From Flavobacterium columnare NBRC 100251 = ATCC 23463 (GTDB lineage: Bacteria; Bacteroidota; Bacteroidia; Flavobacteriales; Flavobacteriaceae), in contig NZ_PCMX01000018.1 of NCBI RefSeq assembly GCF_002530675.1, positions 62,001-126,000 of the forward strand: a DNA stretch of 64,000 nucleotides, read 5' to 3'. The position numbers were made by a program, and so were the translations under genes. Below, piece after piece: positions 38,485-50,027 of the stretch. The notes below the pieces were generated by a model. That model was not told where the DNA came from. It made no database searches and saw only the letters and a program-made list of their open reading frames with translations. Position 1 is the stretch's first letter. Each line of letters opens with the position of its first letter.

Positions 38485-38785
38485 ATATAAAGCCCTAACC
38501 CCTAAAAAACATTCATTAGCTTACATTTTGGTTTAATTATTAAAAGAAAAAATGAAAGCTTAGTTTAATAAAACCTAAAAAAGGCGCATTTTGGTTGGTT
38601 TAAAGCTTCATTAAGCTGTGAATACTCCAATGAATCAAAACCAAAAAAGAAAACCCCTTATGTATCGGCTTAAAACGTACTTTTTTAAACCTGTAGTTAA
38701 AAAGTAGATTTTTTAAAGGCAAGCGCACGAAATTGAATCGTTTTCTTTGAAATGTAGTTAAAAAATCTACATTTCAATAACTTGT
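38485..38785. other. Left-end region of the prophage, gene-free
   Basis: About 300 bases without a convincing gene. It contains four copies of a TTTGGTTT-like core in both orientations (38477-38485, 38526-38534, 38589-38596, 38637-38646). Further on are two inverted repeats, 38678-38706 and 38749-38775. Mu-type left ends carry several transposase-binding sites, so the TTTGGTTT copies are candidates. Neither inverted repeat has a T-run on the repressor strand, so they look more like protein sites than terminators. Confidence 0.45.
38692..38775. repeat. Direct repeat TGTAGTTAAAAA with inverted arms
   Basis: TGTAGTTAAAAA occurs at 38692-38703 and again at 38753-38764, 61 bases apart. Each copy is part of an inverted repeat: TACTTTTTTAA/TTAAAAAGTA around the first and GAAATGTAG/CTACATTTC around the second (nine perfect pairs). 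They lie between the phage end and the repressor stop. Possible roles are transposase or repressor binding. Confidence 0.5.
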
Positions 38786-39535
38786 TTACTCCAAACGGAT
38801 AACTCCAACTACCAAGGCTATACTTCTAATATCTGACATTGGAACTGTAAATTCTCCATAGTCTTTATTATCGCTCTTACAAACTACACTATCTGGCTTA
38901 TCACTTTTAAGTAAGCGTTTCATTATAACCCCTTGACTAACACTATCTATAACATGTACCTTATTCCATTGTACAAACAAAAGTTCATTCACAAGCCTAC
39001 AAGCCACTACATCTCCACTATTATACTTAGGATACATACTTGAACCTCGTACGGGTATCATAAAATCTATTGTAATCCCATCAAACAAAGGAACTACGTA
39101 TCTATCTTCTATTGTATCAAAATCAACGCCTTGCACACTTGAATCCCCTAAACCAGCGAAGGCATCAAAAGGTAACAACGGAATTCCTTTTTGCGAATTA
39201 GTCATTTTAATCGCTGGAATTATTTCGTCATTTGTAGAGGTTTTTTGCATATTTGGTTTTTTGATAATTTCCTTATCATTTATCTTATCATTTAATTCGA
39301 TAAGATTTTCTTTATATTTCGTTTGATAGACTTCACCTATTCCCATCAATAACCATTCAAGATTTATCGCTTTGTCATAGGCGATAAATTTCGCTATATT
39401 ATCTTCACTTATTCCGCTTTCTTTATCTAGTACACCTCTAGTTATACCAGTGTCTTGGTAAAATTTATATTTACTAAGACCTTTAAAATCAATATATTCA
39501 AGGATTCTTTTTTTAATAGGCGAAATTTGTTGCAT
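38786..39535 (-). CDS. Prophage repressor, CI/LexA-like with S24 peptidase domain
   Basis: 249 residues from the ATG at 39535. Longer frames reach into the divergent promoter and are unlikely. Residues 1-70 form a helix-turn-helix domain ending LEWLLMGIGE. The C-terminal S24 domain has the catalytic Ser in GSSMYP (S166) and Lys in VIMKRLL (K206), and an Ala-Gly pair in DAFAGLG (127-128) fits the self-cleavage site. It should keep the prophage silent and be cleaved when RecA is activated by DNA damage. It is transcribed away from the lytic genes. Confidence 0.88.
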   Translation of the reverse strand: MQQISPIKKRILEYIDFKGLSKYKFYQDTGITRGVLDKESGISEDNIAKFIAYDKAINLEWLLMGIGEVYQTKYKENLIELNDKINDKEIIKKPNMQKTSTNDEIIPAIKMTNSQKGIPLLPFDAFAGLGDSSVQGVDFDTIEDRYVVPLFDGITIDFMIPVRGSSMYPKYNSGDVVACRLVNELLFVQWNKVHVIDSVSQGVIMKRLLKSDKPDSVVCKSDNKDYGEFTVPMSDIRSIALVVGVIRLE

Positions 39536-39542
39536 AATAATT

Positions 39543-39572
39543 TTGTTAAGCGAAAAAAGTTGTTTAGTTTTG
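39543..39572 (+). promoter_or_regulatory. Early lytic promoter of the prophage
   Basis: TTG at 39543-39545 and TAGTTTTG at 39565-39572, separated by 19 bases, match the Bacteroidota promoter pattern (TTG-N17-23-TAnnTTTG). It lies 32 bases before the ATG of the Ner-like gene and within the short repressor-Ner spacer, where the repressor would be expected to bind. On the minus strand TATTTTTG near 39590 is a weaker candidate for the repressor gene. Confidence 0.65.
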
Positions 39573-39604
39573 CGTAGTAATTCAACAGCAAAAATATACA
39601 AAAT

Positions 39605-39790
39605 ATGGAAACGCTCGCACAAAAAATTAACCATAGAGTAGCGACTCCTTACCAAAGGATAGCCCAACTACTCGATACTGACGTCGCCTATGTAGGACAA
39701 ATTGCTAGAGGTGAACGAATTCCTAAGCGTGGCAAAGGCTTGAAAATTAAACAAGAAATTGAAAAACTGATACAAAATGAAAACACTTAA
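39605..39790 (+). CDS. Ner/Cro-like DNA-binding regulator
   Basis: 61 residues. The central AQLLDTDVAYVGQIARGERIP is a helix-turn-helix of the Cro/CI type, and a basic tail follows. It is the first gene right of the divergent promoter, the place of Ner in Mu and Cro in lambda. It probably lowers repressor transcription and tunes early expression. Direct proof is absent. Confidence 0.72.
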   Translation: METLAQKINHRVATPYQRIAQLLDTDVAYVGQIARGERIPKRGKGLKIKQEIEKLIQNENT

Positions 39791-39926
39791 AAATCTACTC
39801 CGAAAACTGCTTAGTAAAGCGGTGAAGTTTGAAAGTCGCATCGTGTACGACTATCATCTTAAAAAAAGTGTAACAGCTAGCTATATGTTACTGTTTGGTA
39901 TATACATCAAAACAATTTACAAATAA
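39777..39926 (+). CDS. Small early phage protein
   Basis: 49 residues, MKTLKNLLRKLLSK at the start, strongly basic, with a hydrophobic C-terminal half (SYMLLFGIYIKTI) that could lie on a membrane. Its ATG overlaps the end of the regulator gene and its TAA overlaps the next ATG, a coupled arrangement that supports translation. No function is recognised. Confidence 0.5.
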   Translation: MKTLKNLLRKLLSKAVKFESRIVYDYHLKKSVTASYMLLFGIYIKTIYK

Positions 39927-40342
39927 TGGACATTGAAATAATTGAAACTATTGAAATTAAAAAGGGACTCGTTTCAGCTTTATTAAACACCGATTTACCC
40001 ATTGCAATTATCAAACACAGGCAAAAATATCTAAATCAATTGCAGTGGAAGTATGACGTGCTGGGTTTGGAAAAAGATAGTGTTAAGCTAGATGATATTA
40101 GCAACAAGTACAATGACCACGGCTTTAGATTGCAAAATTCGACAGAGTATTACGGTAGAGAAGCTAATCCGAAAGGCATTGTAAGTATCACTTTAACACG
40201 TGTGCAAGAACAAGAGTTTAAACAAGTTTTAAACCAGTTTAAAGAAATATGCAACAATAAAGATGGTGCTGTTTATGAAAATCCAAACAACTCCCTTCTA
40301 AAAGCATATAAGCTTTACAAGTTGAAAAATGAATTAAACTAA
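39926..40342 (+). CDS. Hypothetical early phage protein
   Basis: 138 residues, soluble, with alternating acidic and basic helices (RQKYLNQLQWKYDVLG and TRVQEQEFKQVLNQFKEIC) that may form short coiled coils. No catalytic motif. It starts in the stop of the preceding gene, so it belongs to the same early transcript. Confidence 0.65.
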   Translation: MDIEIIETIEIKKGLVSALLNTDLPIAIIKHRQKYLNQLQWKYDVLGLEKDSVKLDDISNKYNDHGFRLQNSTEYYGREANPKGIVSITLTRVQEQEFKQVLNQFKEICNNKDGAVYENPNNSLLKAYKLYKLKNELN

Positions 40343-40372
40343 AACAGCGGAAACTAATTTAAAATTTAAAAA

Positions 40373-40672
40373 ATGCAAATAATAAATGAAATCATTTTAA
40401 AAACAAGAGGAACAGGAAATACGTCTTGGATTTTACAATCAGCTATTGAAAACCCTGAATGTGTAATTGTATCAAAGAATATAAGTGAGTCTGTTTACTT
40501 AAAAAAGGCTTATCGTTACTTACTATCAAAAAGCCCTTGGTATAGAAAAATTTGGTGGAAGTGTATTGGAAGAAAACATCCTTTGTTTGTTTCTATTTAT
40601 GCCAATTTTGACAATTGCAAATGTCCTGTAATTTTTGATAACGGAGCTCTCTATTCAAGAAAAAAGAATTAA
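40373..40672 (+). CDS. Small phage protein with a degenerate P-loop-like start
   Basis: 99 residues. Near the start ILKTRGTGNTSWILQSAI resembles a Walker A loop (GxGKT/S) with Asn in place of the Lys, followed by a strand (ECVIVSKN) as in NTPases. No Walker B is visible and the protein is too short for a whole NTPase domain. It could be a remnant or a binding protein. The C-terminal part is basic and Trp/Cys containing. Confidence 0.5.
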   Translation: MQIINEIILKTRGTGNTSWILQSAIENPECVIVSKNISESVYLKKAYRYLLSKSPWYRKIWWKCIGRKHPLFVSIYANFDNCKCPVIFDNGALYSRKKN

Positions 40673-40689
40673 ACCATTTTTTTACTACT

Positions 40690-40800
40690 ATGATAACAAT
40701 TATTGAAACCTACAAGCTTAGTATCGAAACCAAACTTATAGAAAAAAGAATTAAACTTTTTGGAATAACTATTTACAAAGTTATTAGAGTGGTTGAGTAG
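40690..40800 (+). CDS. Possible very small phage protein
   Basis: 36 residues, MITIIETYKLSIETK at the start, with amphipathic strands and no motif. It lies 17 bases after the preceding gene and before the RNA-like element at 40865. The evidence for translation is only its position and a regular composition. Confidence 0.3.
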   Translation: MITIIETYKLSIETKLIEKRIKLFGITIYKVIRVVE

Positions 40801-40864
40801 TTACTTTATCTATTAAGGATACTTATGCTATGTTTTAAAGTTTGACAGCTCAAATATAGCAAAA

Positions 40865-40910
40865 TTCCCGAGAGGCACACACCCAGTTTCGAGTACTGGG
40901 CGGGAGCAAA
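40865..40910 (+). ncRNA. 46-nt repeated RNA-like element, copy 1
   Basis: An outer stem TCCCG/CGGGA (40866-40870 with 40901-40905) encloses an 11-base one-sided bulge AGAGGCACACA and an inner hairpin CCCAGT/ACTGGG (40882-40887 with 40895-40900, loop TTCGAGT). The same 46 bases recur at 45584-45629 with one change. It lies in the untranslated region 30 bases before the MuA-like gene. Possible roles are a cis-acting RNA such as an antitermination site, a translation control, or a protein-binding site. No family is assigned. Confidence 0.55.
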
Positions 40911-40939
40911 ACAAATTTTTAACCAAATTCACTAACCCT

Positions 40940-43180
40940 ATGTACAAACAAGGCGACATACTATTGCGTAAAGCTGACAAAACGGAAACGTTTTGGCTCT
41001 CGCAACGCCTTGTAATGGAGGTGTGTCAGTTAAATGAAGAATATTTTTGGATTGCTAGAAATAGATACAAAAAAACAGTTCGTGCTTGCGATTTAGCAAA
41101 AAGCGGACAGTACTTACCTGATAGTGGCAAAGGCTGGCGCTGGGCAAAAGTAAACGGTAGTTTTTACTATTGTTTTGACAATATCCCTGACCGTAAACCG
41201 TGTTTTTATAAATCAAAACTAGGTACTGTAAACGATATTAAACAAGCCTATCAAGATTTAGGCGAACTAAGCAAAGGAAGTTTGCTAGAGTTAGCTAAAC
41301 AAAGCATTGCTAACAAAGTCACGGATCTGTACGATAGTTCAGATATTAACTATTATCAGTACAATGCCGAGGTGGGATTTAACAGAGAAAAAGCAACCCA
41401 ACTAATGATGTCTAGGGCTTGGTGTGTTTTTGTGAAACACACCGCAGAAAACGACCAATACAAGGCGTTTGGCATTAAAACCAAATCAGAGTTTTACAAT
41501 GTTTGTGCCGAATTGATTCAACCATTAAATTTAGAAGGATTGAACGTGTCAAGTGGGGCATACTTGCGTAACAAAGTAGATTTATTTCCAGCCACTAACA
41601 CTTTAGCACAACGTACGGCGCTTATTTCAAGCAAATACAACAATACAAACGCTATGCAAGTAGGTAAACACAAGCTTGTGGATACTGAAACTGGCGAAAT
41701 TATAAACGTAGACATTCACCAAGCCGTAATGTTTTACGCATTTATGGCAGTAGGTCAAGGGATTAAATTAAATATGCGCCAGCAGTACGAAAGTTTTTAC
41801 TTACCTACTATGCAGGATTTTGATTTAAAACCTACGGGTTACGAAAACTACACCCGAATTTTAAGACAAAACGGATTAAAACTGCTTACTCTTAAAGAGC
41901 GTCACGGAGCTGATTGGTACAAAAAAAGCTCATTGGCTTACGTGCCTTCTCAAAAATTGCAATACGCACACTCTTTATACTGTGCCGATGGTTCAGGAAC
42001 TATCAATTACAGATATTACAACAATAAAGGTGAAAAGAAATCACGAAAGCTTTATGTAATGCTTATTTCTGATGTTGCTTCTAGTAAAATTGTAGGCTGG
42101 AGCGTTGCCGATAAAGGACAAAGTACTGAAACCTATACAATGCTGGACAAAGCTGTAAAAATGGCTATGGAAACCAGCAACTATCAAACGATGTTTGAAT
42201 TTGTGAGCGATAACCACTCCGCTTATACAGCAAGTGAAAGTAAGGACTTGTTAAATATGGTTTTTAACAAAGTGCGAAACATTCAGGCTGGTAACTCACA
42301 GGCTAACCCCGCAGAAATGCAGTTCAGGTTGTTCAAAAGTAGCTTAAGAGGATTAAGCAATTTCGGTTCAACTTCTTGGGGTGTGGGTATTGAGGGACAA
42401 TCAAACCCCGATTATATCAATATCGACGAATTTCCAACCTACGAAGAAGCTATTATGCAGTTTTACGACATCGTGCAACGATGGAACGAGACAAAAAGAG
42501 CGGATGGTTTGTCGCCTAATGAACGTTTTGAGCATAAAAATCCCAAATGTGAGGCTATGGATAAACGAGTAATTCGCTATCTAAACGCTAATCATACCAA
42601 GGTAAACCCAGCGTATATGCGTGGATTTGTCAAAGTAACCAAATCATTAGGCGGTTATAATAACACGAAAGAGTATCTTTTTGAATTGCCCGACCCAATT
42701 GATAGTATGGAAATCATCGAAAAGGCAAATCACTACAAAAGTGCAGAGGTAAAAGTGGTTTGGGATGATGAAAATGCAGATTTGTACAGCTTGGACGGTA
42801 AATACTTAATGACCTGTAATTTGGCATTAAGAGCGATACAATCGCAAGCCGAAGCAGACGACGCCAGCGAAAACGCATTAGACTATCACTTAGCGAGAAA
42901 ACAAAGGCAAATGAACAAAGCTGACGACTTTAAGGAAACGGTAAAAAGTGCTTTTGATGCCCTGTTTTACGATGAGGAAGAAGATGAAGAGGAAGAGCTG
43001 GTAAACGAATTACCATACACGCATCAAATGCAACTAGGTGGCAATAAGGAAAGTTACAACGAAATCATGGAAACCACCACAGCCGATAAGGTAAAAACAC
43101 CACAGGAGCTGTTACTGGAACGTACAAAAAGAAAGTTCTCCTCTATCAAGGAGAACTTACAAAACCAAGCAAGTGCTTGA
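40940..43180 (+). CDS. Mu-type DDE transposase (MuA homologue)
   Basis: 746 residues. The N-terminal part holds DNA-binding helices. The catalytic core has D350 in YCADGSG, D424 in FVSDNHS and E459 in NPAEMQ, a D,D-35-E arrangement like MuA and retroviral integrases. The C-terminal part is acidic (EEEDEEEELV near 685) and then basic, where MuA contacts MuB. It joins phage ends to target DNA in integration and replication. It precedes the MuB-like gene by 29 bases. Confidence 0.92.
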   Translation: MYKQGDILLRKADKTETFWLSQRLVMEVCQLNEEYFWIARNRYKKTVRACDLAKSGQYLPDSGKGWRWAKVNGSFYYCFDNIPDRKPCFYKSKLGTVNDIKQAYQDLGELSKGSLLELAKQSIANKVTDLYDSSDINYYQYNAEVGFNREKATQLMMSRAWCVFVKHTAENDQYKAFGIKTKSEFYNVCAELIQPLNLEGLNVSSGAYLRNKVDLFPATNTLAQRTALISSKYNNTNAMQVGKHKLVDTETGEIINVDIHQAVMFYAFMAVGQGIKLNMRQQYESFYLPTMQDFDLKPTGYENYTRILRQNGLKLLTLKERHGADWYKKSSLAYVPSQKLQYAHSLYCADGSGTINYRYYNNKGEKKSRKLYVMLISDVASSKIVGWSVADKGQSTETYTMLDKAVKMAMETSNYQTMFEFVSDNHSAYTASESKDLLNMVFNKVRNIQAGNSQANPAEMQFRLFKSSLRGLSNFGSTSWGVGIEGQSNPDYINIDEFPTYEEAIMQFYDIVQRWNETKRADGLSPNERFEHKNPKCEAMDKRVIRYLNANHTKVNPAYMRGFVKVTKSLGGYNNTKEYLFELPDPIDSMEIIEKANHYKSAEVKVVWDDENADLYSLDGKYLMTCNLALRAIQSQAEADDASENALDYHLARKQRQMNKADDFKETVKSAFDALFYDEEEDEEEELVNELPYTHQMQLGGNKESYNEIMETTTADKVKTPQELLLERTKRKFSSIKENLQNQASA

Positions 43181-43209
43181 TATAGGGAAACTAACGAATA
43201 AAAAAAGTT

Positions 43210-44142
43210 ATGACAAAATTAAACAATTTTCAAAAGACAAAACAAATTCCTGATGCTATCAGAACGTATTTGGTAGAAAAAAACACTAACCAAGCCAATT
43301 TAGCAAAGTTATCAGGTGTAGGTGAAGCGTATGTGTCTACCATTTTAGCTGGAAAAACAACCATTGCAAAATCAGAAATAAAGGACAAATACTACGAGGC
43401 ACTTTGTCAATTTATAGGCTTCGAGTTAAAGCCTGAACTATGGAGACACTTTGACACGACAAACTATATGCTTTTTATCACTTCAATTGTGGAAGCAAGA
43501 CAAGAAAAAAAGCGATTCACTTTCGACGGTGATACAGGAAGTGGTAAGACTTACGCCTGCAAAGAGTACAAAAGACAATTTCCAACCAATACCTTTCTTG
43601 TTACTTGTTCGGCTATTGAAAACAGCAAAGAATTTGCCATAAACATTGCCGAAGTTGTAGGAGTTGAAACCCACGGAACTGCTGGAGCAATCATCAAAAG
43701 AGTGGTTAAAAAACTGATAAGCCTTGAAGATGCTATTTTATACATAGACGAAGCGGAACACATAAAAAATAAAAGCGGTTATATCAATATCATTAAAAGT
43801 TTAGCCGATTTACTGGAAGGAAAGGTAGCGTTTGGGCTGGTAGGTATGGGAATCAATGACATATTAAACAAAGGCTTTGAAAGAAACAAGCAGAACTTTA
43901 GACAAACTGCCCGCCGATTTTCCGACCGAGGTAAATGTGTAGAGGATATAGCAGAAGATATAGCCAATATTTGCCACGATATGAATATAACCAGCAAAAG
44001 GATAATAAACTGGTTTACAAACAGAATAAAGGACTTTGACACGATGAAAATTATCACAACCAAAGCAATTAAAGAAATAACAGAAACTGGCGAACCTATA
44101 AGCATTGAACTATTAAACTCTATCTATCATGGCAAATATTAA
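43210..44142 (+). CDS. AAA+ ATPase, MuB-like target selector
   Basis: 310 residues. An N-terminal helix-turn-helix (ANLAKLSGVGEAYVSTILAG, about 29-48) is followed by an AAA+ ATPase with Walker A GDTGSGKT (107-114) and Walker B ILYIDEAEH (176-184). MuB binds DNA as filaments, chooses target sites and activates MuA. The combination and position right after the transposase make this assignment firm. Confidence 0.9.
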   Translation: MTKLNNFQKTKQIPDAIRTYLVEKNTNQANLAKLSGVGEAYVSTILAGKTTIAKSEIKDKYYEALCQFIGFELKPELWRHFDTTNYMLFITSIVEARQEKKRFTFDGDTGSGKTYACKEYKRQFPTNTFLVTCSAIENSKEFAINIAEVVGVETHGTAGAIIKRVVKKLISLEDAILYIDEAEHIKNKSGYINIIKSLADLLEGKVAFGLVGMGINDILNKGFERNKQNFRQTARRFSDRGKCVEDIAEDIANICHDMNITSKRIINWFTNRIKDFDTMKIITTKAIKEITETGEPISIELLNSIYHGKY

Positions 44143-44389
44143 TCAAACTATAAGAAAAGCGCTTCGCAATTATAATCCAGTAATGAACAAAAATTTTGAA
44201 ATACGTTTAAATATTTTAAAGTATCGTTTAAGCTTGTCACTTGTATGTTCAATTGACAAGTATACAAATACTTCGAAGGTAAATGCCAACAATGATTCTG
44301 AACACAACTGTAATCAGGAGCATTTTGAAAATCGTCTTTTCGAATACTTTCAATCTCAGCAGAAAAACGCTCAAAGTCAAGCTCATTAA
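44129..44389 (+). CDS. Uncertain small gene, overlapped by an opposite-strand frame
   Basis: 86 residues, beginning 14 bases before the MuB stop, basic at the start and Asn/Gln rich toward the end, with no motif. On the minus strand 44468-44148 encodes 106 residues beginning MIVFNISYSSDKSSH, with a helical FSELKKFIKLINELDFERF segment, and is equally protein-like. The plus frame fits operon direction and coupling to MuB. The minus frame has a plausible A/T-rich leader. I cannot decide which is real. Confidence 0.35.
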   Translation: MANINQTIRKALRNYNPVMNKNFEIRLNILKYRLSLSLVCSIDKYTNTSKVNANNDSEHNCNQEHFENRLFEYFQSQQKNAQSQAH

Positions 44390-44498
44390 TCAGTTTGATG
44401 AATTTTTTAAGCTCAGAAAAACTATGTGAACTCTTATCTGAACTATAGGAAATATTAAAAACAATCATAAATAAGTTTTTACCACAAATTTAAAAAAT

Positions 44499-44669
44499 AT
44501 GTCAAATAGTAATAACAGAAGATACTATTTACACAAGTGCTTAAAAAAGCTCGGTGTAAGAGTTAAAGCAAGAAAAAAAACGATTTATATCGATCCTGAA
44601 CTAACAGAAAATGTAAAAGTTAAGGAGTTATTAAAATATAATTATACAATTCAAACAGAAATAGTTTAA
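44499..44669 (+). CDS. Small phage protein
   Basis: 56 residues, basic (RRYYLHKCLKKLGVRVKARKKT), then a short acidic helix. Its stop codon touches the start of the DUF3164 gene, which supports translation. The basic surface suggests nucleic acid binding, as inference only. Confidence 0.5.
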   Translation: MSNSNNRRYYLHKCLKKLGVRVKARKKTIYIDPELTENVKVKELLKYNYTIQTEIV

Positions 44670-45344
44670 ATGGAAGTACTAGCACAATTATCAGACGATG
44701 CTCTTTTAAAAGAGTTGTCACGTAGAAACGAGAAAAAAGAAGCTAACAAAAAAGCTTATAACGACTTGAAAGAAGAACACATCCCGCAATTATTCAGCCG
44801 TTTAAAACAATGGTCAGAAGAAGGCGAAGCCATAAAAGCGGAAATCTACCAAGGGCTAAAACAATTAATTGAATTAAAGTTTGAAACCTACGCCACTAAA
44901 ACGAATCAAAAATCGCACACGTTTAGCGCAAGTAATGGCGAAACAATTACCATAGGGTATCACGTTACAGCAGGTTACGACGACACGGTTTATATGGGCG
45001 TGGCAAAAGTAAAAAACTTCATTAATTCATTAATAAAGGACGAAGATACAGCGAAGCTAGTCAAGCAGATAAACAACCTTTTAAAACCTGACAAAAAGGG
45101 TGATTTAGACCCAAAAAGAGTAATGGAGTTGAAACAAATTACTAAAGAGTACAAGGATTTTGAATTAATTGAAGGAGTTGAAATTATTGAAAATGCTTAC
45201 TCGCCACGTCGTTCCGCTTGGTTTATTCAGGCTTCATTTCAAAACAACGTAGGCATTGACCAGCATTTACCGCTTTCAATAGCCTCTATGAATTTCCCCA
45301 AAGGTTTTGATTTAAGCTTTTTGATTAAAGAAGAAAACAAATAA
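44670..45344 (+). CDS. DUF3164 family phage protein
   Basis: 224 residues. The N-terminal half is a charged helical region, and the second half holds the family features, such as the FETYATKTNQKSHTFSASNG segment and the IENAYSPRRSAWFIQ motif. DUF3164 proteins are typical of Mu-like phages and their relatives, in the early region after A and B. The role is unknown. The protein lacks catalytic motifs. Confidence 0.82.
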   Translation: MEVLAQLSDDALLKELSRRNEKKEANKKAYNDLKEEHIPQLFSRLKQWSEEGEAIKAEIYQGLKQLIELKFETYATKTNQKSHTFSASNGETITIGYHVTAGYDDTVYMGVAKVKNFINSLIKDEDTAKLVKQINNLLKPDKKGDLDPKRVMELKQITKEYKDFELIEGVEIIENAYSPRRSAWFIQASFQNNVGIDQHLPLSIASMNFPKGFDLSFLIKEENK

Positions 45345-45348
45345 AGGA

Positions 45349-45570
45349 ATGGTTACAGATACTTACATAAACGAAAACAAAACAGCTACTTTCAAAAAGG
45401 GTGATAAAGTAGAAATGTTTAATTGCTATGAATCAACCTTTGAGAAAAATAAAGGGAAGATTTGGACTTGTCAAACTGATAGTTTCTTAGATATAGGTAA
45501 GCAAGAAGTCGTTTTTCTTGAAGAATTTTCGGGCTGTTTTAGTGCCAAATATTTAAAGAAAGTAGATTAA
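45349..45570 (+). CDS. Hypothetical phage protein
   Basis: 73 residues. Strand-like segments (KKGDKVEMFNCYESTFEKNKGKIWTC) suggest a small SH3-like barrel of the type found in phage regulators. It lies five bases after the DUF3164 gene and just before the second RNA-like element. No function is assigned. Confidence 0.55.
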   Translation: MVTDTYINENKTATFKKGDKVEMFNCYESTFEKNKGKIWTCQTDSFLDIGKQEVVFLEEFSGCFSAKYLKKVD

Positions 45571-45583
45571 AGCCGACAAAAAT

Positions 45584-45629
45584 TTCCCGAGAGGCACACA
45601 CTCAGTTTCGAGTACTGGGCGGGAGCAAA
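45584..45629 (+). ncRNA. 46-nt repeated RNA-like element, copy 2, with a following hairpin
   Basis: Same as 40865-40910 except C to T at 45602, which changes a C-G pair of the inner stem to a T(U)-G wobble and so keeps the fold. The outer stem TCCCG/CGGGA and loop TTCGAGT are identical. Twelve bases on, CCCCTG/CAGGGG (45641-45658) adds a second hairpin before the next gene at 45675. It lies in an untranslated spacer, as does copy 1. Confidence 0.55.
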
Positions 45630-45674
45630 GTTTTAAATGTCCCCTGTTTAGGCAGGGGCATAAAAAAATAAATT

Positions 45675-46133
45675 ATGAATACACAGGATAAAATAAACGC
45701 TTTATGTAGCAAGTTCAGTGCTTCGGCATTGGGTCAGGCAGTGTATATGGAAACTAAACGCACTACTGATATTACGGAACTTTCAAGAGAAGAAGTCGAA
45801 GCACTTTACGCTCGTTTCTTTCCTAAAAAATCAGCCATTGATTTTTTATTTGAAATGGAGCAAGAAAGAGAATTGAAAAGACTTCGCTCGGTAATCATTA
45901 AAGAAGCTCAATTTATTGGAATTTATACGCCTGAATCTTGGGCGACGTTCAACCGTTTTATGCTTCATAAAAGCGTCTTTAAAAAGTCTTTAAACGAGTA
46001 TAAAATAGAGGAATTTCCACAATTAATTCAACAATTCAAGTCGATGAGTGCTAAAGTGTCAAGAGCTAAAATGATACCGCACACCACAGCTTGGTATAAC
46101 GAATTAGGATTGAACGATATAAGCCAAAATTAA
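45675..46133 (+). CDS. Hypothetical phage protein
   Basis: 152 residues, helical and charged (MEQERELKRLRSVIIKEAQ), with a Trp/Phe motif near WATFNRFM. No known domain is recognised. It starts 46 bases after RNA-like copy 2 and may be controlled by it. Confidence 0.6.
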   Translation: MNTQDKINALCSKFSASALGQAVYMETKRTTDITELSREEVEALYARFFPKKSAIDFLFEMEQERELKRLRSVIIKEAQFIGIYTPESWATFNRFMLHKSVFKKSLNEYKIEEFPQLIQQFKSMSAKVSRAKMIPHTTAWYNELGLNDISQN

Positions 46134-46205
46134 AAAAAGACCTGCCAAACTGACAAGCCTTTCCTCTTAGCACAGCAAAGGTAAAAAATTAAATTTCTTT
46201 TCAGC

Positions 46206-46445
46206 ATGGCGTACAACAAAAAAAATCTTTACAAACGTATTATTGAAATCCAAGACATTACAATTCATGAGAAGTACAAAAAAGGGTTAACGCAAAAGGA
46301 GATATACTGGAATATCATTTATCCTAAGTTCAAAATTTGCGAGCGTACATTTTCAAGCTACCTCGGTACTCCAGCTAAACAAGAGCTAAAAAAAATGAAC
46401 CAAGCTGAACAATCGCATAATCAATTAACACTTTTTAATAATTAA
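46206..46445 (+). CDS. Small phage protein with a possible HTH
   Basis: 79 residues. The segment KGLTQKEIYWNIIYPKFKICERTFSSYL reads like a helix-turn-helix (KGLTQKEI then a turn and recognition helix). It may be a regulator of later genes, the place held by Mor/C-like activators in Mu, but no family match is claimed. It precedes the M15 peptidase by one base. Confidence 0.5.
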   Translation: MAYNKKNLYKRIIEIQDITIHEKYKKGLTQKEIYWNIIYPKFKICERTFSSYLGTPAKQELKKMNQAEQSHNQLTLFNN

Positions 46446-46446
46446 C

Positions 46447-46920
46447 ATGGACACAGTAACACAGCAAAGAATTAGCAAACTACATCCCACAGTTAGGGAA
46501 GAAATGGTAAAGATTATTAACAGCTGTAACCAAGCTTTACAAGGTAAAGCACAAGTACGCATCACACAGGGTTTGCGTACTATTGAAGAGCAAAACAAGT
46601 TGTACGCCATAGGCAGGACTGTAAAAGGCAAAAAAGTGACCAATGCCAAAGGCGGTCAGTCTATCCACAACTATGGTTTTGCAGTGGACATCTGCCTGAT
46701 TATCGAGGGGAAAACCGCCAGTTGGGACACGGCAAAAGACTGGGATAACGACAAAGTAGCCGACTGGTACGAATGTGTAAAGATTTTTGCACTTCACGGC
46801 TGGGACTGGGGCGGAAACTGGGCAAAATTTAAGGATATGCCCCACTTTGAAAAGAAAAATCTAACGTGGAAACAGCTGGCTAAGCTTAAGCTAGACACCA
46901 GTGGTTATGTAAAACTATGA
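46447..46920 (+). CDS. M15-family peptidoglycan peptidase (endolysin candidate)
   Basis: 157 residues. The zinc ligands fit the VanY/L-alanyl-D-glutamate peptidase family: H74 and D81 in SIHNYGFAVDI and H133 in DMPHFE, with RTIEEQNKLYA upstream. It cleaves peptide cross-bridges and could serve in host lysis. There is no signal peptide, so it needs a holin or another route. None is recognised nearby. It lies in the early/middle block rather than after the tail genes. Confidence 0.87.
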   Translation: MDTVTQQRISKLHPTVREEMVKIINSCNQALQGKAQVRITQGLRTIEEQNKLYAIGRTVKGKKVTNAKGGQSIHNYGFAVDICLIIEGKTASWDTAKDWDNDKVADWYECVKIFALHGWDWGGNWAKFKDMPHFEKKNLTWKQLAKLKLDTSGYVKL

Positions 46921-47060
46921 AACAAGAAAAAAGTATAAAACCCGTATGTATCCACTCCAGTACTTATACCAAAGTACTGGAGGTTTGGACAACGGTTGAA
47001 AAAACAGTACAAGTGTGCTGTGAATGTCAAAAAGTAATCGGAAAACCAAAGTTTGAATAA
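46917..47060 (+). CDS. Small Cys-rich phage protein over a strong hairpin
   Basis: 47 residues. The C-terminal VCCECQKVIG is like half of a zinc ribbon. The ATG overlaps the stop of the peptidase gene and its stop overlaps the next ATG, so it is probably translated. The coding DNA contains a perfect 11-bp inverted repeat at 46955-46982, so the region might also act as an RNA structure. Confidence 0.45.
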   Translation: MKQEKSIKPVCIHSSTYTKVLEVWTTVEKTVQVCCECQKVIGKPKFE

Positions 47061-47617
47061 TGCAAGTCCTAGCACACACGATAAAAACAGACTGCCACTT
47101 TGTGCTTTTTTATTCAAAATCAGGAAAGCTCGAAGGGGTGAGATTGAAAAAAGGCAAAATGCAACCGCAATTGTGGGATAAAATAGGGAAAATACTCCCG
47201 CCTACTGTTCAAGATTTAACCAGCTTTAAAGAAACTTTAAAAGGTACGGTAAATTATACCGAAGTGGTGAAAGAAAAGAATTTGTTTTCTGAGTTTAATA
47301 CTATTTGGTTTGCCTTTTATGAAAATCATACAGGATTCCCACCAAAGTTTACAGGAATTGACGGCAAGAGTTTAAAGCAAATCATTACTTACCTACAAAG
47401 CGTATGTCCTACTGATGAAGAATGTATGCAAGTGTGGCAAAACCTTTTAAATAACTGGTGTAAACTGGACAAGTTTCATCAAAGAAATACAGATTTGAAA
47501 TACATAAATAGCCAACTTAATAAACTTCTACAAGATGCAAAACAAAGCAATAGCGGTTCAAAAATCAAGTATAGCGACAATTTCCAACGAAAAATTATTG
47601 AATCGCTACAGTCCTAA
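47060..47617 (+). CDS. Hypothetical phage protein
   Basis: 185 residues, soluble. FNTIWFAFYENHTGFPPKFTGIDGKSLKQIITYL resembles a segment found in phage replication or DnaD-like proteins, and the C-terminus is a charged helix rich in Gln/Ser/Lys. The function is not certain. It overlaps the next frame by 83 bases if that starts at its first ATG. Confidence 0.55.
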   Translation: MQVLAHTIKTDCHFVLFYSKSGKLEGVRLKKGKMQPQLWDKIGKILPPTVQDLTSFKETLKGTVNYTEVVKEKNLFSEFNTIWFAFYENHTGFPPKFTGIDGKSLKQIITYLQSVCPTDEECMQVWQNLLNNWCKLDKFHQRNTDLKYINSQLNKLLQDAKQSNSGSKIKYSDNFQRKIIESLQS

Positions 47618-48089
47618 AAACTGTATGGAGCATGCTTACAAATTAACCAATTTGGAGGAAGCTATGAATAGAAATGCGCCAAGTTTAGGCGCAATTCGTA
47701 GAGATAAAGGTGATAAGTTTTCAAAAGGCTTGGTGATGGTGTGGCTAGTGTACATAAATGATATATTAAACTTAAACAAACCACTCACCGAAGACCAAAT
47801 AGAATGGTGTGCCACGCAAATAATTAGTGATTTTGCCTATTTAAAAATATCAGATCTCACCTTGCTAACCAAACGGATTATTTCAGGCGTTTATGGGGAG
47901 TTTTTTGAGTCACTCAATTCGGCTAAATTACTTCGCTTTTTTACAGATTACGCAGAGGAACGTATGGAGTTAGCCGAAAATAACAGCTTACGAGCGCATA
48001 ATAACTATACAAGCGAGGACACTTTCAACTACTCGCAAAATGTTGAACGCATTTGGAAAGGAGCTAAAGGATTTAATAGTAATAAATAG
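47535..48089 (+). CDS. Hypothetical phage protein
   Basis: 184 residues from the first ATG. An ATG at 47625, eight bases past the preceding stop, would avoid the 83-base overlap and gives 154 residues starting MEHAYKLTN. The protein is helical, with motif-like NAPSLGAIRRDKGD and WLVYINDILNLNK segments seen in Bacteroidota phage proteins of unknown role. No catalytic residues are recognised. Confidence 0.5.
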   Translation: MQNKAIAVQKSSIATISNEKLLNRYSPKNCMEHAYKLTNLEEAMNRNAPSLGAIRRDKGDKFSKGLVMVWLVYINDILNLNKPLTEDQIEWCATQIISDFAYLKISDLTLLTKRIISGVYGEFFESLNSAKLLRFFTDYAEERMELAENNSLRAHNNYTSEDTFNYSQNVERIWKGAKGFNSNK

Positions 48090-48091
48090 AT

Positions 48092-48916
48092 ATGGAAAGT
48101 AAAATTTTATCAAAAATCAGGAAATTATTAGCCAAAGCTAATTGCGGAGCTTCTTCTGGAAGTGAAATAGAGACGTGTTTAAAAATGGCTCAAAAATTAA
48201 TGATGCAACACAATCTAGACAAATCAGATGTTGAAATTCATATTTCTGACATCAATAAAGAGGTTATTTACTCCGATTTATGGAAATACTTCAAGTATAA
48301 AACAGCTAATTTCGAATGGAATTTATTAGACACCATAGCCGATAGTTATAATTGCAGAGTATTTAACGGTGTGAGTTATGATTTTGAAGCTAAAGACTGG
48401 CAAAACACAAAAAAAACAAAACTTTCTGTAGTAGGTACTTTTGAAAACAGAATGATAGTTAAGGAGTTGTACCAATCTTGTGTTGAAATATTTTTGAATC
48501 TATCTGAAATTAGATACAATGAATATAAAATATTAAAGAAAAACACTTTAACAAGACAGTTAAATGAGCTTGGAATGCACAAAAACATAACTATTCAATG
48601 GCTTGAAAAACACAAGCTAATGTCTTCTAAAAAAACATTTATTACCTCTTATTTAATTGGTTGTACTAAAGGAATTCAAAAATATTTAGAAGCTCAGAAA
48701 GCAGAACTATTAGCATTAGATGATAATGCTTCTAAATGGGGTTTAATTGTTTTAAAAAACGATGAACTAATAGAAAAAGCTTTACCTGATATAATTGGGG
48801 CTTTTTCTAAAAAAGCTGTAAAAAATGTAGCGCATTGCAAAGAAGGTTTTTTGCAAGGAGTTGAGGATGGGAATAGAAATCAAACAATGAAAGAACTTGA
48901 GGTTTATAATGATTAA
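48092..48916 (+). CDS. DUF2786 domain phage protein
   Basis: 274 residues. The N-terminal 45 residues (KIRKLLAKANCGASSGSEIETCLKMAQKLM) match DUF2786, which occurs in phages and mobile elements and is thought to bind DNA or a partner. The rest is an unassigned C-terminal region with several Cys. It follows the preceding gene by two bases and overlaps the next. Confidence 0.78.
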   Translation: MESKILSKIRKLLAKANCGASSGSEIETCLKMAQKLMMQHNLDKSDVEIHISDINKEVIYSDLWKYFKYKTANFEWNLLDTIADSYNCRVFNGVSYDFEAKDWQNTKKTKLSVVGTFENRMIVKELYQSCVEIFLNLSEIRYNEYKILKKNTLTRQLNELGMHKNITIQWLEKHKLMSSKKTFITSYLIGCTKGIQKYLEAQKAELLALDDNASKWGLIVLKNDELIEKALPDIIGAFSKKAVKNVAHCKEGFLQGVEDGNRNQTMKELEVYND

Positions 48917-49121
48917 ATCAAGCACCTACATCCGAAGTTTTACCCCTGAACAACGCAAGCAACTCGAAGAAGTAGCAAGCGCCAAAGGGTTTAAGACCGT
49001 TCCCGAAATTCTGTTTTACGCCTTAGCGCAACATTTGGAGCAAAACAAAGAAATAGAACGACTAAAAAGAATAATCGAGTACAAACAAAAGAAAATAGAA
49101 AAATTGAATAACGAGAATTAA
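48909..49121 (+). CDS. Small coiled-coil phage protein
   Basis: 70 residues from the ATG at 48909. A TTG at 48897 is less likely. The first half has a ribbon-helix-helix or Arc-like look (YIRSFTPEQRKQLEEVASAKGFKTVPEILFYAL), and the C-terminus (NKEIERLKRIIEYKQKKIEKL) is a coiled coil. Possibly a small DNA-binding dimer. It overlaps the preceding gene by eight bases. Confidence 0.55.
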   Translation: MIKSSTYIRSFTPEQRKQLEEVASAKGFKTVPEILFYALAQHLEQNKEIERLKRIIEYKQKKIEKLNNEN

Positions 49122-49172
49122 TGTTTAAGAAAGAATTTCTACTTTTACTAACTTTAAAATATCAAATAAATA

Positions 49173-49490
49173 ATGAAAAAAGTAATCGGAATTGCATTGT
49201 GTTTATTGACCATAGCTTGTAGTAAAGCTGATTTTTCTAAAATCAAAAGCGGAATGACTACTAAAGAAGTAACTGCTTTAGTAGGAGAACCAAAGGAAAA
49301 CCAAGAAATAGCCTTTTTAGGAGCTTCTTACTGGGTTTATGAAACTCATGTTGTTACTATGGTTGATGGAAAAGTGGAAAGATGTTTAACCAATGAAGAG
49401 TTTGGAAAGCAAATGCCAGATTTTACAAAGGAAGTAGACAAAACAGTGAACACTTTAAAAAAATCTTTAAAAACTTTAGATTCTATCTAA
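49173..49490 (+). CDS. Small lipoprotein, SmpA/BamE-like fold
   Basis: 105 residues. The leader MKKVIGIALCLLTIAC is a lipoprotein signal ending at Cys16. The segment GMTTKEVTALVGEPKE, followed by a YWVYE strand and a DGKV loop, resembles the small SmpA/BamE domain. It would be anchored to an envelope membrane. Expressed from a prophage, it could change the host surface or exclude other phages. That is inference. It is the last gene of the plus-strand early block and is followed by a terminator. Confidence 0.7.
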   Translation: MKKVIGIALCLLTIACSKADFSKIKSGMTTKEVTALVGEPKENQEIAFLGASYWVYETHVVTMVDGKVERCLTNEEFGKQMPDFTKEVDKTVNTLKKSLKTLDSI

Positions 49491-49493
49491 CAA

Positions 49494-49516
49494 AAAGCAG
49501 GCACAACGCCTGCTTT
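49494..49516. terminator. Bidirectional terminator between converging phage blocks
   Basis: AAAGCAGGC and GCCTGCTTT form nine pairs with a five-base loop, followed by T6 on the plus strand. The early plus block ends just before it (49490) and the minus late arm ends at 49518, so it can stop both transcripts. Confidence 0.88.
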
Positions 49517-49517
49517 T

Positions 49518-50027
49518 TTAGTCTAATAGCTTTTGGTACAAATCGGTTTCTAGGTGTACATTTTCAATTACTCCTTTTAAATATTCTTCAGGGGTTGTCA
49601 TACCCTGATAACGACAGCTGTATGTTAAAATATACACGTCCACTACCGTTTCATCCACCGCCAACTCTTCGCCCATAAGTACCAAACGTCCTGTGTTTTT
49701 AGTGTGAAAAGAAACGAGTATTTTGTTTGTAATTCGCACAAAGTCCAAAAATTTTAAGGCTTCTTTGGCGTTAGAACTTACGGAGGAATAATCTCGTAAT
49801 TGTTCATACGCTAGTCGTATGGTCATTGTAGCAGTTTGACTAGTGTGGTCAACGCTCCAGTGTACAAACAAGGCAGGAAACAAATGTGCATCAAAATTTT
49901 GAGGGTCATAATCCTGCCCTGCATATAGGTCAACAAAGCGCACTGGTAGTACACCTTGACTTCGGTAAATGTCCTTGGTTTGTTCCTCCATAAACACGCT
50001 TACCATTTTTTCGTAAAACTCTTTCAT
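49518..50027 (-). CDS. Phage protein, possible tail terminator
   Basis: 169 residues. Strand-rich segments (TMTIRLAYEQLRDYSS and VDVYILTYSCRYQG) and the size agree with tail terminator or head-tail connector proteins of the gpU/gp17 class, but the family match is weak. It is the final gene of the minus late arm, next to the virion morphogenesis gene. Confidence 0.5.
   Translation of the reverse strand: MKEFYEKMVSVFMEEQTKDIYRSQGVLPVRFVDLYAGQDYDPQNFDAHLFPALFVHWSVDHTSQTATMTIRLAYEQLRDYSSVSSNAKEALKFLDFVRITNKILVSFHTKNTGRLVLMGEELAVDETVVDVYILTYSCRYQGMTTPEEYLKGVIENVHLETDLYQKLLD

Follow-up and report, generated by a model that had tools for sequence, protein, structure and literature searches.

What kind of signal is a 46-nucleotide (nt) sequence that stands twice, on the same strand, in the early region of a Mu-like prophage? 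The locus lies in a 64,000-nt stretch of the Flavobacterium columnare NBRC 100251 (= ATCC 23463) genome (contig NZ_PCMX01000018.1, positions 62,001 to 126,000), which we refer to here as the window. An earlier note on its letters had likened the repeat to paired antitermination sites such as HK022 put or to a cis-acting translation control, and had missed its tRNA mimicry (T-loop UUCGAGU, GG and purine-C end). Judged from its sequence, the element is an RNA mimic of the tRNA top half. The reading that we favor is that it acts in cis as a processing signal, cut by host RNase P and perhaps by RNase Z, and gives the downstream gene its own mRNA 5' end; the chances that this is correct appear to us evenly balanced.

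Two copies of one element in prophage fF4

The copies were found where the earlier note had placed them, at 40865-40910 and 45584-45629, both on the + strand and separated by a single C-to-T mismatch (40883 / 45602). A pattern search of the window allowing up to 3 mismatches returned these 2 matches, against a mean of 0 in shuffled sequences (n = 100), and the repeat stretches to 50 nt at 96% identity. In the own genome, a slightly loosened pattern gave 2 forward and 0 reverse matches, with 0 for the reversed-pattern control. Each copy folds into an outer stem UCCCG/CGGGA, an 11-nt bulge and a 6-bp inner stem with a 7-nt loop, which is the fold that had been proposed. The lone change indeed keeps pairing through a G-U wobble, C-G becoming U-G on the + strand. 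The fold energies of the copies are unremarkable (z of -1.89 and -0.61) and weak as evidence, so that covariation in relatives was used in their place for the RNA claim.

Both copies belong to Flavobacterium phage fF4, a prophage of F. columnare ATCC 23463: positions 39500-47000 of the window equal its record, MN850656.1, at 100%, and this record has no annotated feature at either copy's place. In the paper describing it, fF4 is a Mu-like, spontaneously inducing phage, and the word "tRNA" occurs 0 times in the text searched (PMC7761591).

Copy 1 spans 40866..40907 (+; R2: 69.7 bits, E 1.5e-17), with the 5' strand of the outer stem at 40866-40870, the bulge at 40871-40881, the T-stem at 40882-40887 and 40895-40900 on either side of the T-loop (40888-40894), the 3' strand of the outer stem at 40901-40905, and G73 and C74 at 40906 and 40907. 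Copy 2 (45585..45626, +; R2: 71.7 bits, E 4.2e-18) has the same layout shifted by 4719, with U-G in place of C-G at 45602 / 45618. The bulge of copy 1, AGAGGCACACA (40871..40881, +), contains a GG that resembles G18 G19 of the D-loop. Its position 2 (40872) is pairable with position 8 (40878); the final base of the T-loop (40894) can likewise pair with bulge position 9 (40879). Covariation brings out these tertiary-type pairs in the family, and copy 1 presumably forms them as well.

Covariation of the stems and of two tertiary-type pairs

A search with the MuB-like protein of the prophage found relatives in 43 of the 398 genomes of the genus, and relatives so found have an element in which the inner stem is fully compensated and the loop UUCGAGU unchanged. 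A covariance model (CM) of such relatives, which the earlier note had suggested building, gave 43 places, partly read by eye, in 29 of 398 genomes, a count that includes one genome (G095) whose sole match, L081 inside an open reading frame (ORF), is false. Thirty-five of these places lie within 8 kb of a MuB-like match, a zone that we estimate at ~0.06% of the genomes; 13 are upstream and 22 downstream, and 35 of 35 are on the MuB-like strand. The remaining 8 places are away from any listed MuB-like place.

In an alignment of 45 matches, 84.5% of the cells were paired, compared with 69.3% after shuffling and 37.5-50.2% in slid controls, and double-change cells numbered 78 rather than 22.4. This alignment still contains L081 and L114:234; the cleaner set of 35 matches without them had 58 double-change cells, against 16.4 in shuffles. 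Such CM alignments are fitted to the model. For the wide set of 246 distinct elements, a column-pair scan that left out near-invariant columns ranked the 11 stem pairs and two tertiary-type pairs at the top, making 13 covarying pairs. Bulge positions 2 and 8 formed 240 Watson-Crick pairs (75.7 expected), and bulge position 9 formed 227 with T-loop position 7 (160.1 expected), as A-U, G-C, C-G or U-A. The next ranks were echoes of neighboring stem columns and a weaker pair of bulge 6 with T-loop 6 (227 versus 215.2).

Among 146 distinct gap-free 44-nt elements, 99.3% of the cells were paired, with 622 double-change cells versus 164.8 in shuffles, and sliding reduced pairing to 32-45%. In both the 146- and the 246-element sets, stem pairing had been required beforehand; the two bulge pairs had not been selected. 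That 13 of 13 pairs carry double changes does not discriminate, because 120 of 500 shuffles also reach it. The alignments show a covarying RNA structure with tertiary-type pairs. With stems that covary strongly and conservation far beyond the window pair, the repeat is more than the recent segment duplication for which the earlier note had allowed, and its description as a strand-specific, structured RNA located in spacers ahead of separate early gene sets has held up.

The family scan matched 5 of 397 genomes, the own and four others; 4, own counted, were read as true, and G763 was read as the 3' remnant of a tRNA-Asn. From the order scan (12 of 346 genomes), 8 were read as holding elements, own counted, 3 as holding host tRNAs only, and 1 (G159) as a spurious match. 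The phylum scan matched 24 of 296 genomes, including the own and G906/G924. Its other matches read by eye looked like host tRNA, coding sequence or spurious hits, and the unread ones are mostly 82-94 nt long and host-tRNA-like; among the matches read in this partly read scan, there was no true element outside the order. The E. coli genomes contained no match to the element. In Elizabethkingia miricola (L115), an element stands before the MuA-like gene. We also observed variants with a GGTTTCGACACC-type hairpin instead of the 7-nt T-loop (L140:39-89, L148:7712-7775 and L114:3674-3725), those of L140 and L148 standing before MuA-type genes.

Geometry of a tRNA top half

The layout of the element is an outer stem, an 11-nt strand with GGCA, a T-stem, the T-loop UUCGAGU and then purine-C. 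Its geometry was measured in 78 elements; 18 of 121 CM matches were dropped or unmeasured. These comprised L081 (in an ORF), four host tRNAs (L114:234, L162, L163 and L168), the tRNA-Asn remnant (L154), L165, which on later reading is a host tRNA, and 11 matches that the script could not measure, some of them clear elements (L066, L142) and one spurious (L164).

The 7-nt T-loop on the T-stem follows UUCRANY, and the window copies have UUCGAGU; its closing pair is G-C in 192 and U-A in 18 of 210 elements, the window having U-A and not the usual G-C. The break between the two stems shifts among the 78 measured elements (5+6 in 45, 7+5 in 13, 6+5 in 7 and 5+7 in 2), with a constant sum of pairs (11 in 53 and 12 in 16) apart from 9 elements with 9-10. 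The bulge contains GG in 75 of 78 elements, and in 66 of 66 short bulges versus 32 with the letters shuffled; this GG hardly varies. Pair 1-72 is U-A in 73 of the 78. Purine 73 and C74 are present in 237 of the 246 distinct elements, many of whose loci were collected with a pattern requiring purine-C; since the forward pattern demanded GGCA, the T-loop and purine-C, these letters are partly a matter of choice in the loci so gathered.

At position 75, a C is found in 10 of 210 elements. The host's own tRNA genes have N73-C74 in 22 of the 22 distinct ones read, from 30 of 56 tRNA places, and CCA in only 2. The GCAAA end of the element resembles these gene ends, namely R73-C74 followed by an A-rich sequence. 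In the host RNase P RNA, GGGGU takes the place of the model's CGGGU; by eye we took it as the L15 GGU.

Full-length tRNA-like forms in the same slot

Several relatives passed the gathering threshold of the tRNA model RF00005: L142 (56.1 bits), L045 (51.8), L080 (46.9), L082 (45.6) and L118 (46.6). The window copies had no RF00005 match over gathering in the scans of the window and of 40800-45700. ARAGORN called only L080 (tRNA-Thr) and L142 (tRNA-Lys); among the loci submitted to it (sets of 7, 31 and 13), no minimal element was called as a tRNA. L045 lies just past a DUF3164 gene, and neither L080 nor L082 has a listed MuB place nearby.

One downstream protein family of four is preceded by a full tRNA (L142), a D-arm form (L082), a long form (L147) and a minimal element (L127); another, of three, by a full tRNA-like form (L118) and by minimal elements in near-identical copies (L056, L143). 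As read from such loci, full-length tRNA-like and minimal forms exchange before homologous genes, and the anticodon half is variable: missing, replaced or in full form. In 39 rows, not all independent, an element precedes a gene from the same cluster as the window's MuA-like gene. As an observation apart, L045:12250-12384, downstream of DUF3164, has a normal D-arm and a ~65-nt insert in its anticodon arm.

Occurrence in other phages and in plasmids

When one element was compared with phage records by blastn, Streptomyces phages matched over 63-67% of its length. In phiScoe54, GCGTG-agtggcacaca-CCCAGG-ttcgagt-CCTGGG-CACGC-AC stands between two genes, and Aaronocolus has a similar element. The pattern of GGCA, T-loop and purine-C occurred in at least 120 viral stretches (contig counts are lower bounds). 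Among the matches listed, 137 of 169 in new loci form both stems, with 31 outer and 55 inner stem kinds, whereas the reversed pattern hit 80 stretches and 0 of its 80 matches form both stems. A single contig, L218, contains eight elements in 6.6 kb.

A 55-nt query matched 171 of 50,697 phage records, 116 of them over at least 80% of its length; a minority of the matches were read in place. The hosts were Streptomyces (109), Caulobacter (26), Mycobacterium (20), Sinorhizobium (5), Gordonia (3), Microbacterium (2) and others, and the architecture is present in phages of Streptomyces, Mycobacterium, Gordonia and Microbacterium. The Caulobacter phage rows shown cover 42% of the query and represent the T-arm only; Ccr10, the one of these phages that was read, is without an element, its match adjoining tRNA genes. 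Eleven Corynebacterium plasmids also match. The two read (pCstat1, L301:1501-1544; pET44827, L300:1501-1545) have the outer stem, the GGCA strand and the T-loop, with an imperfect T-stem; pCstat1 failed the stem filter, and its match lies ~150 nt before repA.

Placement upstream of genes

The two spacers of the window are, as the earlier note had said, otherwise unrelated: copy 1 precedes the MuA-like transposase gene, and copy 2 is flanked by two small genes downstream of DUF3164. To this pair we added other named phages, nine in all, and compared 39 elements with their coding sequence (CDS) tables: fF4 (2, in the first 12 kb), Joe (8, whole genome), Aaronocolus (10, in 36-49.6 kb) and, in 1.6-3 kb around a match, phiScoe54 (5), ElGato (6), Send513 (3), Aleemily (2), Lupine (1) and Endor2 (2). 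All 39 elements are sense, and 37 of them lie between same-strand CDS. One of the two exceptions is an ElGato copy at the edge of its stretch, upstream of a CDS; the other overlaps the annotated 5' end of Aaronocolus gp67. In the phages examined, the element thus stands on the sense strand upstream of genes. One Joe copy is also under a weak opposite-strand call (Joe_78), the Lupine element ends in UC instead of purine-C, and one of the two copies in Endor2 (MT711979; L295:762-844) is annotated as part of a tRNA-Arg.

Of the 9 gaps of at least 65 nt in Joe's early arm, 8 hold an element, in one case a variant with an additional base, and the other 36 kb hold 0; from the ends of the 7 strict copies to the next start it is 34-52 nt. 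For Aaronocolus, the figure is 9 of 11 gaps of 65 nt or more. Most elements of the Flavobacteriales end ~11-60 nt before an ATG. In unannotated contigs, an ORF start lies within 120 nt of 86 of 124 elements, versus 1689 of 4320 random places (39%), and 35 of the 124 are inside a same-strand ORF of >100 amino acids (aa), although such ORFs may be over-called.

A proposed processing signal and its alternatives

The acceptor/T-stem stack of the element, 11-12 bp, ends in purine-C, and its T-loop would be docked by the GGCA strand as in the tRNA elbow. In a processing signal, host RNase P would read the elbow and the purine-C end and cut where the outer stem begins on its 5' side, and RNase Z might cut behind the purine too. 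The early transcript would be cut just upstream of the start codon, so that the mRNA of the downstream gene would have a defined 5' end of its own; within operons, this would separate the cistrons, as in tRNA punctuation. According to a review, bacterial RNase P reads the T-stem-loop, a ruler of roughly 12 bp and the RCC end, and it cleaves acceptor plus T-arm hairpins, the phage C4 precursor and some mRNAs (PMC11143913). The element has R73-C74, mostly lacks C75, and mostly has a ruler of 11. Cutting before start codons is favored over the alternatives because only the parts read by enzymes of the tRNA top half are kept, the decoding half is dispensable, and RNase P cuts minihelices. Charging by one synthetase is unlikely, since the acceptor letters and N73 (A or G) vary. 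From these features we infer recognition by RNase P or Z, cleavage and a benefit to the phage.

Several observations weigh against such processing. The strand from the loop to N73 is mostly 11 nt long (57 of 78, with 12 nt in 21; 11 in the window), not 12 as in tRNA. CCA is encoded in only 2 of 210 elements. The bases at -1 and 73 are pairable in 31 of 78 elements (17 U-G, 12 U-A and 2 C-G), which might shift cleavage. The genus scan with a strict filter found an element within 8 kb of only 28 of 60 MuB-like places, so that Mu-like phages can do without it. A palindromic, promoter-like stretch often precedes the MuA-type copies, which therefore look like leader elements; they seem to be promoter-proximal, a place with no cistrons to separate. 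In the unannotated, mostly GC-rich contigs, placement is a weak test.

An uncut roadblock or docking site in the 5' leader could shield the downstream mRNA from exonucleases or bring in a tRNA-binding factor to set how the next gene is translated. It would fit elements that mostly lie ~11-71 nt before start codons, also in promoter-proximal-looking leaders, where punctuation is unneeded. However, a plain roadblock would not need conserved R73-C74, and full-length tRNA-like forms, which would be expected to enter tRNA processing, can replace the element; we regard an uncut leader as rather unlikely, though it is the strongest of the alternatives. A more doubtful one still is an excised mini-tRNA of ~42-46 nt acting in trans, for instance by decoying host or defense factors that bind tRNA. 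The up to eight copies in 6.6 kb would fit it, as would the phiScoe54 and ElGato copies that adjoin an Ocr-like antirestriction gene, but placement before genes, partly of the same families, points to a role in cis, and with N73 being A or G and outer stems of 31 kinds there is no single synthetase identity.

The cis-acting role proposed in the earlier note is probably right; its antitermination part found no support. A structured RNA in early regions, with two copies in fF4, would fit a put-type site, yet some phages have the element in nearly every sizeable early gap, not one per transcript (the Joe and Aaronocolus gaps above). Moreover, the fold is that of a tRNA elbow and not of the two put hairpins. 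A terminator consensus scan of 38500-50000, a weak test, returned 10 terminator-like sites (7.5 in shuffles), of which 3 are on the + strand; the closest of these are 4.3 kb downstream of copy 1 and 3.0 kb downstream of copy 2. We consider put-type antitermination very improbable. Functionless leftovers (a recent segmental duplication, decayed tRNA genes or attachment-site remnants) can be practically dismissed: full tRNA-like forms do exist, several CM matches are host tRNAs and another resembles the 3' remnant of a tRNA-Asn, but compensatory changes, the diversity of outer stems, the uniform sense placement near MuB and multicopy arrays with unlike stems in one contig speak against decay.

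Beyond the single prophage, unrelated DNA phages and, imperfectly, some Corynebacterium plasmids may share an undescribed RNA code in which nondecoding tRNA tops serve as gene-by-gene punctuation of early mRNA. The tops would be derived from, or convergent with, real tRNAs and used by host tRNA-processing enzymes, as a prokaryotic viral counterpart of mitochondrial tRNA punctuation; taken together, this broader proposal seems to us somewhat short of an even chance.

Relation to known tRNA-like RNAs

The likeness to tRNA (RF00005) consists of the T-loop UUCRANY, the T-stem, the continuous 3' strand of 11-12 nt, the D-like GG, purine 73 and C74. The window copies differ in having no D-stem, anticodon arm or variable loop, 11 bp, an extra bulge pair 2-8 and a location in mRNA spacers. 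Mitochondrial RNase P and RNase Z cut polycistronic RNA at tRNAs, and there, too, tRNA folds stand between cistrons on the coding strand with short gaps to both genes; the elements, in contrast, are minimal nondecoding tRNA tops in DNA phages of bacteria, and their cleavage is putative. The tRNA-like structures of plant RNA viruses are located at genome 3' ends and end in CCA. They have in common with the element a viral mimicry of the acceptor and T-arm, whereas the elements are internal and almost always without CCA. HK022 put is likewise a structured RNA of phage early regions, and it differs from the element in its fold, in its copy number and in where it is placed.

C4, an antisense RNA, folds differently, and c4 clan models gave no match in the window; the sole c4-2 match (L121) lies beside an element, not in it. 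The C4 antisense RNA precursor of P1/P7 and M3 RNA are reported as phage RNAs processed by RNase P (PMC11143913). Cutting of a phage RNA by host RNase P would be what the elements share with them. The same review describes AT1 and pMini, RNase P model substrates that consist of an acceptor stem plus T-arm (PMC11143913). Their minimal architecture is nearly identical but man-made, whereas the elements are natural and have an 11-nt docking strand.

The Rfam search suggested in the earlier note, with Flavo-1 included, yielded nothing: Rfam 15 had no match at gathering in the window, and only three chance families below threshold in 40800-45700. Three element-rich stretches, L218 (8 elements), L181 (5) and L199 (at least 4), one of which is a Streptomyces phage, gave one chance uc_338 at E <= 0.5. 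We found no description of the element by title or abstract opening in the literature searched, which did not include most subscription papers. An RNA family with 13 covarying pairs, spread over several phage host groups, is thus without an Rfam match in the stretches tested, and it has escaped Rfam despite sequenced, named phages (Joe, Aaronocolus, fF4). If the element is cut, phages punctuate their mRNA with mini-tRNAs and rely on host RNase P for early gene expression; the elements would then provide minimal RNase P substrates of natural origin, mark the genes concerned and allow the evolutionary reduction of tRNA to be tested directly. Left uncut, a leader with a tRNA elbow would nonetheless represent a new type of control over phage mRNA.

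Surroundings of the two copies

Directly upstream of copy 1, an imperfect palindrome seen by eye (40827..40860, strand not assigned) may be promoter- or operator-like, possibly divergent. A similar motif, ATTACTAT..TAAATATAGTAAT (also ATTACTATTATTTAT..GTGAGACGG..TAAATATAGTAAT), was seen by eye ahead of many MuA-type elements in relatives, and this palindromic stretch looks like overlapping divergent promoters or an operator. The MuA-like DDE transposase gene (40940..43180, +; phrog_310 transposase, E 6.4e-18) starts 33 nt past C74 of copy 1 and is followed by the MuB-like AAA ATPase gene that served to find relatives (43210..44142, +; phrog_296 DNA transposition protein, E 4.6e-29). The DUF3164 gene (44670..45344, +) is the landmark ahead of the second element class. 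After it, the stop of a small gene (45349..45570, +) lies 14 nt before U1 of copy 2.

The gene after copy 2 (45675..46133, +; 152 aa) has homologues in some other phages that are also preceded by an element. In a different locus, a c4-2 RNA (RF02944; L121:900-981, -; 45.1 bits) lies ~90 nt downstream of an element, and the gene beyond it resembles a KilA-N antirepressor. Between copy 2 and the next start codon, we noted by eye a G+C-rich hairpin (45638..45660, +) with no T run after it; identical letters also follow the second element of locus L003.

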